A DNA stretch of 64,000 nt. Origin: Metallosphaera hakonensis JCM 8857 = DSM 7519 (GTDB taxonomy: Archaea > Thermoproteota > Thermoprotei_A > Sulfolobales > Sulfolobaceae). Location: the NCBI RefSeq assembly GCF_003201675.2, contig NZ_CP029287.2, forward strand, positions 1,302,001 through 1,366,000, given 5' to 3'. Positions 50,027-62,184 of the stretch are shown here, one piece after another. Each line of letters begins with the position of its first letter. Within the stretch, counting starts at the first letter, position 1. Both the position numbers and the translations under genes were made by a program. The notes beneath the pieces are model-generated. The model was not told the origin of the DNA and did no database searches. It worked only from the letters and a program-made list of their open reading frames with translations.

Positions 50027-50189
50027 GGGCGATTCACGTCTCCTTTGCGAATTCAATTTATTTATCGAAATAGAATGAATTTAATTAAACACTCTCGTAC
50101 GGACTGAGTAAGGACTCGTGCTTAACAATTTCCTTTATTAGATCTGTTTTTGCGATAATTACAATTCGCAATGGAAACCTGAATCGCCC
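50027..50189. repeat. MITE copy A (163 bp)
   Basis: The ends are inverted: GGGCGATTCACGTCTCCTTT at left and, read inward from the right, GGGCGATTCAGGTTTCCATT. Flanks share CACATT (6-7 bp), an apparent target duplication. No ORF is present. The right end is close to identical to the end of the mutator-like IS (26 of 30 positions), which suggests cross-mobilisation. Confidence 0.85.
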
Positions 50190-50237: not shown

Positions 50238-50315
<78 letters not shown>

Positions 50316-57555: not shown

Positions 57556-58611
57556 ATGGAGATTCACGAACATATCATCGACCTGCCAAAGAAAGTGTAT
57601 GTAGGTAATGGTATTTTAGGAAAATTGAAAGATTATTTATTTCAACTTAACGTAGTAGATCCAGTATTAGTGATTTCTGGACCGAATGTAAGGAAAATCA
57701 TTGTTAACGAAATTATGAAAGGGCTCAATGAGATGAATAGCTTAGAACTAATTGAAGTAACCGACTCTTCTATCGATGAGGTAAATAAAGTGGAGGAAAA
57801 AATGAAGAAATTCAGTCCAAGATTCATTCTAGGAATAGGTGGAGGAAAAACTATTGACGTTGCTAAGTATGTGGCCTATAGGCTTAATGTCAACTTCATA
57901 AGTATTCCAACAGCTCCATCTCATGATGGGATAACATCCCCTTTCGCATCCATAAAAGGTCTAGGTAAGCCCGTCTCGGTAAAGGCTAAGATGCCGTACG
58001 CGATTATAGCCGATATAGATGTACTAAGTGCGGCTCCACGTAGGTTAATCAATGCCGGTATAGGGGACACGATTGGGAAACTAGTAGCTGTAAGAGACTG
58101 GAAACTGGCATCCAAGCTTACAGGAGAATACTATGGAGATTACACGGCGTCGTTGGCTCTATTGTCAGCAAAACATGCTCTCAATTGTACAAAAATAATT
58201 CATAGGGATCTTAAATATAGCGTTAGACTTCTTACTGAAGCTCTCATAAGTAGTGGGGTTGCAATGGGAATGGCCGGGAGCACCAGGCCTGCTAGTGGTT
58301 CTGAACATCTTTTTGCACATGCAGTGGACTTACTTCAACCTAACCTAGCTATGCATGGAGAACTTGTGGGCATAGGGACTATAATAATGGCATACATTCA
58401 TGGTATAAGATGGAAAGATATCCGAAATGCATTAAACAAAATCGGCTCACCTACAACAGCTAAGGAACTTGGTATTCCTAATGAAGTTATAATTAGAGCC
58501 TTAACGATAGCTCATACAATTAGACCAGAAAGATACACAATATTAGGAGATAGAGGACTTACATGGGGATCCGCAGAAAAAGTGGCTCGGGACACTGGCG
58601 TCATTGATTAA
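57556..58611 (+). CDS. egsA: Glycerol-1-phosphate dehydrogenase
   Basis: This 351-aa NAD(P)-dependent enzyme makes sn-glycerol-1-phosphate, the backbone of archaeal ether lipids, from [17 protein letters not shown] binds the dinucleotide; [14 protein letters not shown] and the His residues in [12 protein letters not shown] and [12 protein letters not shown] are the metal ligand region. A TTATATTTAA element (57531-57540) is just upstream, so the transcript should be nearly leaderless. It overlaps the convergent FKBP gene by 11 nt. Confidence 0.96.
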
Positions 58612-59308
58612 TAAGGGACTTGGTATAAGACTCTTGGAATATCACAGTCAAATCCTCTAAAACATACTTTATAACATCTCTAGCAAGGAGCAATTTCCTA
58701 GTCTGAAGGTCCGTCTCTAGATATATTTTTTCAGGAATTATTACCTTTAGAACCTTCTGATCTTCTGATAGCTCAGTAGTAAGTTGCTCTACTCCAGGGA
58801 ACCATCTCTTGACTAGAACCTGAATTTTATCCTTAACCTCTTTTATCTCCTTCACCACTTTAACTCGATATATCAAAGTTTTACCAGCTAACGGATGATT
58901 CAGATCTATATAGACCCTACCTCCACTTACACTTTTTATGATACCCATAGATCCATCAGAGAATCTAACAGGTAGACCGGGAAAAGGGGTAACTCCTTGT
59001 TTTCTAAGTTCACCTATCGACAAAACCCTGACCTTTGCTGGATCCCTCAACCCATAGGCGTTCTCTGGAGAGATTTCTATTTCTCTCTCCTCGTTTAACT
59101 CCATTGTATACAAACTGTCCTCTAAACCTTTGATGAGCCTGTGTTCGCCCAGTATAACCAACTGTGGCTCGTATTTTTTATCTTGGGAGTAAATGCCGGC
59201 TTTTTTGGCCTCTTCTTCAATCGTAGTCTCTATAACTTCTCCAGTATTTTTGTCCTTTCCAGTGTAATCTATATAAATAAAATCTTTCTCTTTGAACATG
59301 ATGGTCAA
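58601..59308 (-). CDS. FKBP-type peptidyl-prolyl isomerase, SlyD-like
   Basis: This 235-aa long-type archaeal FKBP accelerates proline isomerisation. It has the catalytic fold split by an insert-in-flap domain (about 85-145), with [20 protein letters not shown] and [13 protein letters not shown] signatures. A C-terminal extension of about 80 residues follows, as in archaeal 26-29 kDa FKBPs. Likely cytosolic chaperone. Confidence 0.93.
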
Positions 59309-59499
59309 TGCTCATACTGATATGCAATTTTAAAATTAGTCATAAAGTGAGAGATTACTCATCTGTTATCCGAAACGTCCTGTGTTCAACATATAGATAC
59401 CCTAATTTTAGTTCTATGAGGGTTCTTCTCTATAACGTACTAAGCAGACTAGTACTAACAGAAATATTTTATTTATTTTGATGTTAAGTTCCGTTTTCT

Positions 59500-59662
59500 A
59501 GCTTTTTCATGGATTCTTTACGAATTCAGTCTGTTTAGGAAAATAAAACAAATTTAAATGAATTATTTCCCATAAATTAGATAGAAATTTAAACTTCACA
59601 GTTTCCTTTATTTTACCTAACTTAGCCATAATTACAATTTCCAATTAACACCTGAATTGTTA
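59500..59662. repeat. MITE copy C, degenerate
   Basis: The left end (CATGGATTCTTTACGAATTC region) and right end (ACAATTTCCAATTAACACCTGAATTG) align with MITE copies A, B and D but with many changes. Internal CAGTTTCCTTTATTTTACCT and CATAATTACAATTT segments keep the family pattern. The ends no longer form clean inverted repeats and no target duplication is seen. Confidence 0.55.
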
Positions 59663-59780
59663 GAAGTCATTATTGTAATACATAAGTAGACCATTTTATA
59701 ATAAAAATTTTAATCTAGCATAAGAAGCATGATCAGTATAAAAATAAAACGGATTTACCTAAGAGCCCGAACGGGATCAT

Positions 59781-59942
59781 GGGCGATTCAGGTTTCCATT
59801 GCGAATTGTAATTATGGAAAAAAAGATCAAATAAGGGAAGTTGTTAGGCCAAAATCCTTACACAGTCCATAGGAGAGCATTTAGTTAAATTCATTCTATC
59901 TCAATAAATAAACTGAATTCGCAAAGGAGACGTGAATCGCCC
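59781..59942. repeat. MITE copy B (162 bp) with target duplication
   Basis: It starts GGGCGATTCAGGTTTCCATT and ends, read inward from the right, GGGCGATTCACGTCTCCTTT. GGATCAT (59774-59780 and 59943-59949) flanks it as an exact 7-bp target duplication. No coding potential. It lies in reverse orientation to copy A. Confidence 0.92.
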
Positions 59943-60068
59943 GGATCATAAACTTCCGTGATTCATTGAATTTGTTATACAATCTAGGAATACTTATCGT
60001 GATTTTCAATTTAACGATTGATATGATAATTATCAAGGCTTTTAAGTTAACGTCGTGATACTCATGAT

Positions 60069-60305
60069 GTGGGTAATAAGACTTTCACATTTGGTGATAT
60101 CAGAATAAGGGAAGTTAAGGGAAAGTATTATGTTTACATTATAGAGAAGGATAATGAAGGTAAGAGAAGGGATCGTTATATAGGTCCTTTAGATGAGGTC
60201 GTGAAAATAGCAGCGGGAGTTCTAGGGGGAAACCCCCTAATGTGGGCCCGGAGGGATTTGAACCCTCGACCACGCGGTTATGAGCCGCGCGCTCTACCTA
60301 GCTGA
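60069..60305 (+). pseudogene. Int(N): N-terminal fragment of an SSV-type integrase
   Basis: This 78-codon frame starts at GTG 60069. The first ~58 residues (FGDIRIREVKGKYYVYIIEK, RYIGPLDEVVKIAAGVLGG) closely resemble the N-terminus of SSV1-type tyrosine integrases. The frame then reads through the 3' end of the tRNA on the opposite strand (RPRGYEPRALPS) and stops inside the tRNA D arm. SSV-type elements split their integrase gene when they insert in a tRNA, and this is the N-terminal half with the att site. The catalytic half, Int(C), was not found in the window. Confidence 0.88.
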
Positions 60306-60316
60306 GCTACGGGCCC
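60243..60316 (-). tRNA. tRNA with CAT anticodon (Met elongator or Ile2); att site
   Basis: Read on the minus strand, acceptor GGGCCCG pairs with CGGGCCC followed by A. D stem GCTC/GAGC, anticodon stem CGCGG/CCGCG and loop CTCATAA give anticodon CAU. There is no intron. Sequence alone does not decide between elongator Met and Ile2 (agmatidine at C34); the initiator looks less likely. The 3' half forms the attachment site for the Int(N) element on its left. Confidence 0.9.
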
Positions 60317-61723: not shown

Positions 61724-62184
61724 ATATCTAATACATTTAAGTCACAGAGTTTTTATATTTAATTTACGTACTTATCTATTTTGAGCAAATTACTTGTACA
61801 CGAGTATATGCAAGGACAAGTCACGGGTCTTTTATGAATTCGGTTTATTTACCTAAGTAGATTGAATTTAATTGAACACTCCCGTACGGACTGGTAGGGA
61901 TTCACGCTTAACAATTTCCTTTATTTGATCTCTCTTTGGAATAATTATGATTCACAATTGGCACCTGAATAGCCCCGTATGCAGAAGCCAAGCGAATCAT
62001 TTTAATTATCTGGAATATAATTAAATAACATAAAATAATTATAAAATATGAAAACTTTTTAGAGTTTAATAATGTAATTTTGATCAACATTGTTCACTAT
62101 TTTTATTATTTAATGAAACAGGCTTGATTAGACTTGGAAAACTATAGTAAAATTCTACAAGAACTAATACTTAACGTACACGTA
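61724..62184. other. Accessory gap with a MITE
   Basis: This 460-bp AT-rich stretch contains MITE copy D (61814-61975). The rest (61976-62184) shows no supported gene, only long AT-rich runs up to the left end of IS copy 3. Confidence 0.6.
61814..61975. repeat. MITE copy D, partly diverged
   Basis: The internal part matches copy A almost continuously (CGTACGGACTG, ACAATTTCCTTTATTTGATC). The left terminal repeat is altered (GGACAAGTCACGGGTC) and the right reads CACCTGAATAGCCCC. A clean target duplication is not visible. Confidence 0.65.

Follow-up and report, generated by a model that had tools for sequence, protein, structure and literature searches.

Splitting of the suicidal integrase gene upon integration is standard for SSV-type elements, as set out in a review (PMC8371274). 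Lone intN fragments are listed for three Sulfolobus islandicus strains at tRNA-Ala(GGC), tRNA-Pro(GGG), and tRNA-Glu(TTC) in PMC3718332 (Table 5), where tRNA-overlapping int remnants are termed a strong indication of old integration. These cases resemble the locus described here in that little, if anything, of the element survives apart from an N-terminal integrase fragment next to a tRNA gene. Our analysis concerns a window of 64,000 nucleotides (the whole stretch of DNA analyzed) from a Metallosphaera genome of 2,544,115 bp. With a probability of roughly 0.93, the locus goes back to an SSV-type integration at tRNA-Ile2(CAU) that has since decayed, Int(N) surviving passively. Its features, in window coordinates, are the following.

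58604-59308, minus strand: FKBP gene, recognized by its FKBP domains
59309-59339, no strand: host flank adjoining the FKBP gene on its upstream side, also conserved at the insertion-free sites (alignment with L070-L072)
59516-59657, no strand: older, diverged (68%) copy of the ~162-bp repeat, inverted
59781-59942, no strand: MITE-like repeat element of ~162 bp next to the relic, ending in 27-bp imperfect terminal inverted repeats
59955-60068, plus strand: region upstream of the element's integrase gene, still retained (alignment with SSV5, SSV-Lassen, and stumps of other genomes)
60069-60305, plus strand: Int(N) frame, GTG start, 78 aa, TGA stop at 60303-60305
60069-60241, plus strand: Int(N) stump proper, the N-terminal 58 codons of an SSV-type integrase gene, with a GTG start but lacking a stop
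60242-60305, plus strand: continuation of the Int(N) frame antisense through the tRNA, ending with the TGA in the D arm
60242-60316, minus strand: tRNA-Ile2(CAU), the target gene, reconstituted and intact, its 3' half being the attachment site (ARAGORN; Rfam)

The whole frame matches PF07935 (SSV1_ORF_D-335) with E=2e-15. Residues 1 to 58 alone still match this family (E=1e-14; 55 bits, cut-off 22 bits) and the PHROG integrase family phrog_5127 (E=6e-13); since they precede the tRNA, the similarity is not tRNA derived. Residues 59 to 78 are antisense tRNA and match tRNA genes everywhere, and this tail was therefore excluded from the evidence. The first-pass annotation, which had described a GTG-started frame with an SSV1-like integrase N terminus that enters the 3' half of an opposite-strand tRNA and stops in its D arm, was thus right on both counts, and the comparison with SSV integrases that it proposed for these 58 residues returned SSV-type N termini. 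The nearest named relatives are the integrases of SSV5, SSV-RH, SSV-Lassen, SSeV, and plasmid pXZ1; residues 1 to 59 of the SSV5 integrase are 80% identical to Int(N), and the integrase-start DNA of SSV5, SSV-RH, SSeV, and pXZ1 is 76 to 89% similar to the stump. Closest among the relatives compared is a chromosomal stump at tRNA-Asn in another genome (G008), with 89% DNA identity over 46 codons. The start codon is GTG here and ATG in most aligned relatives. The geometry of 60069-60316 is the Int(N) anatomy left by SSV-type (suicidal integrase) integration, and the locus combines the marks of such a remnant, i.e., a PF07935 domain, an antisense run into a tRNA 3' half, and relatives without the insertion.

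The target gene scores 73.1 bits against Rfam RF00005 at 60242-60316 on the minus strand, and ARAGORN reads its anticodon as CAT and labels it Met. Two further CAT genes of the genome, one initiator-like and one elongator-like, are both intron bearing; the acceptor stem and the whole 3' part of the gene at this locus are common to tRNA-Ile(GAU), and no UAU-anticodon tRNA was found among the 45 tRNA genes of the genome. Because separate Met genes exist, the 3' part is that of tRNA-Ile(GAU), and no UAU tRNA was detected, the gene is most likely tRNA-Ile2(CAU) rather than tRNA-Met, judging from its sequence; the earlier CAU assignment holds for the anticodon. tRNA-Ile2 decodes AUA after modification of C34, and the gene should be essential.

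Gene order around this tRNA (FKBP, tRNA, ahcY) is the same in three genomes of the same genus (G003, G004, and G005), where the FKBP gene and the tRNA lie ~130 to 170 bp apart versus ~900 bp here, and none of the three carries an Int(N) beside this tRNA. Since these relatives keep the gene order without Int(N), the DNA was gained in the present genome. The proposed comparison with related genomes thus found the frame missing beside the same tRNA, and the trace, which the first-pass annotation had called dated, is datable only roughly, to after the split from these three species. In a further genome (G002), the FKBP gene lies ~300 bp from the tRNA and Int(N) is absent. Another of the same genus (G001) is uninformative about the insertion state, having neither FKBP nor ahcY beside this tRNA. 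Its tRNA-Ile2 (L068) lies in another neighborhood, ~220 bp from a frame that by eye resembles TnpB/OrfB of transposons.

Traces of the element extend beyond the integrase frame. Upstream of the start codon, blastn matches to SSV-Lassen and SSV-RH begin at ~59986 and those to the G008 stump at 59956, and a TATA-like CTTTTAAG lies at 60039-60046, near the start codon and inside the retained upstream region. These alignments place the left limit of element DNA at about 59955, so that the earlier estimate of only ~170 bp plus the att site proved too small. The gap 59309-60068 had been ascribed to erosion of the element; this explanation fails in part, since two copies of an inverted-repeat element occupy it and erosion is not its sole content. 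No phage match was obtained for 59309-59960. The ~162-bp repeat, with inverted ends GGGCGATTCA..., has ~40 copies in the genome at 72 to 94% identity. Within the window, it also occurs at 50027-50189 and 61821-61975, the former copy ending ~50 bp from the 3' end of tRNA-Val(GAC) at 50241-50315, and similar copies are present in other Sulfolobaceae genomes (G027, G016, G013, and G011).

The remainder of the element was searched for at the locus and genome-wide. Neither the catalytic domain of Int(C) (PF16795) nor the C-terminal part of the SSV5 integrase has a match in the genome, and the gap holds no second att copy and no element gene other than int and its upstream region. A complete SSV-type provirus, with a PF16795 Int(C) behind a second att at the far end, is thus not present, and neither are the structural genes of a Fuselloviridae provirus. 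The first-pass annotation had an element to the left of the tRNA, mostly lost, which Int(N) homology and the insertion-free relatives bear out. It had left the remainder as lost or moved; loss agrees with the lack of a detectable Int(C) in the genome, and relocation does not. Likewise, a genome-wide search with the tRNA 3' sequence turned up neither an Int(C) frame nor a displaced att; its best nonidentical hits fell in other tRNA genes, one of which (L033) is the intron-bearing tRNA-Pro(GGG). With no second att and no element gene besides int left, we can only infer the integrated element itself. A fusellovirus and a small pXZ1-like plasmid are both conceivable as its source and are indistinguishable here. 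The viral collection scanned (IMG/VR) yielded no virus with the att sequence of this tRNA; there, protein matches were mainly to the tRNA-derived tail and att DNA searches gave 0 matches for a long pattern and nine contigs for a 21-base pattern.

We propose that a circular element (a fusellovirus or small pXZ1-like plasmid) recombined at its attP, located within the integrase gene, with the tRNA 3' half. Integration would have restored a working tRNA into which Int(N) reads, with Int(C) placed at the distal, left end of the element. Having no intact integrase, the element would have been unable to excise itself, and later deletions would have taken out Int(C) together with the distal att copy and the element body; next to what is left now lies a short repeat element. 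Int(N) would have survived mainly through its essential neighbor: because it abuts the tRNA gene, deletions reaching into it must end within ~170 bp.

The same outcome recurs in this genome. All 10 of its PF07935 matches lie antisense at tRNA 3' ends, which excludes chance given only 45 tRNA genes. All 10 stump-bearing tRNAs are intronless (10/23 intronless versus 0/22 intron-bearing genes as read from ARAGORN output; Fisher p=0.0006), and 3 of the 10 stumps contain stops. Elsewhere in the genome, the 3' ends of tRNA-Val(TAC) and tRNA-Arg(TCG) face each other ~600 bp apart (L003/L007, G000:C1:1388149-1388896), and each has its own Int(N) stump in this interval. Across 31 Sulfolobaceae genomes, 207 Int(N) matches stand against ~30 strong Int(C) among the matches listed, a ~sevenfold excess. 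The strong Int(C) mostly sit in place opposite an Int(N) among the matches listed. There, too, 125 of 150 Int(N) stand without an Int(C) partner and 5 of 30 strong Int(C) without an Int(N) partner; roughly one in four Int(N) contains stops. The antisense arrangement at a tRNA holds for 57 of 69 Int(N) examined in 11 genomes, the other 12 having no ARAGORN tRNA in place. Random deletions were simulated between two immovable genes with an essential tRNA on one side, under assumed deletion lengths and a tRNA tolerating no deletion. Int(N) outlasted Int(C) in every setting tried (1.3- to 93-fold), the bias being governed mostly by the extent of decay, from 1.3-fold when little is lost to ~10-fold or more when almost all is lost. 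Since neutral deletion suffices in this simulation, selection on Int(N) is not required for the bias. The partly surveyed literature yielded no statement of this imbalance, for which we claim no newness. Integration histories thus remain legible in tRNA flanks even when the provirus itself is gone, and the count may be of some use.

Selection was also considered at the codon level. Against the viral relatives compared, Int(N) has dN < dS. Pooled over stumps that share a tRNA between sister species, dN/dS is 0.29. For several pairs, dS is far above host-flank divergence; these look like independent integrations, and their constraint may have been imposed while the gene was still viral. Three stump pairs with lower dS have dN/dS of 0.5 to 1.0.

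Decay does not account for these data uniquely, as an open frame with dN < dS would also be expected soon after capture or if the peptide were under some constraint. Retention of Int(N) as a host gene, i.e., a short protein made from the viral promoter and kept, for instance, against multimerization of incoming integrases, is nevertheless very unlikely. The frame is open, its upstream region is kept, and lone Int(N) are common; moreover, PMC8371274 describes control of multimerization by the integrase N terminus and transcription of int(N) in two integrated S. solfataricus elements. Against such a role, relatives lack the frame at this tRNA, the stops noted above interrupt 3 of 10 stumps in this genome and roughly one in four of the matches listed family-wide, the lower-dS pairs have dN/dS of 0.5 to 1.0, and neutral deletion is enough for the Int(N) bias. 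The broader idea that Int(N) stumps, having kept their upstream regions, are expressed and yield small proteins poisoning the multimerization of incoming SSV-type integrases is just as improbable; if true, Sulfolobaceae would owe a kind of integration immunity to their abundant lone Int(N).

Two further readings concern the origin of the frame. Several similar stumps and many repeats in the genome would allow the stump to have arrived when a block containing the tRNA was translocated, or through recombination of two stumps, instead of by integration here. This is very improbable given the intact FKBP-tRNA-ahcY synteny on both sides and a closest compared stump in the genome, at tRNA-Ala, that is only 77.5% identical. 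The frame could lastly be a chance antisense reading of the tRNA, an RRDLNPRP-like peptide without any integrase, as many unrelated genomes match only about residues 55 to 77, the tRNA part. This reading has next to no probability, refuted by the PF07935 match of residues 1 to 58 alone (E=1e-14) and by the continuation of the SSV DNA match upstream of the gene. Decayed integration with passive survival of Int(N) thus remains the preferred explanation.

Set beside known systems, the stump shares its N-terminal domain (~70 to 83% identity) and a similar upstream region with the Fuselloviridae integrases of SSV5, SSV-RH, and SSV-Lassen, which are whole genes, unlike the stump; the annotated target of SSV-Lassen is tRNA-Gly. 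The integrase start of plasmid pXZ1 from S. islandicus is 85.5% identical to the stump in DNA but belongs to an intact gene on a 7-kb plasmid with another att sequence. The lone intN fragments of S. islandicus differ in genus and in tRNA; unlike in those cases, a repeat element borders the relic here, and insertion-free genomes of the same genus are at hand. The locus is one more case of the already reported lone Int(N) at a tRNA, one of 10 in this genome, and stands as a record of one old infection of this lineage.
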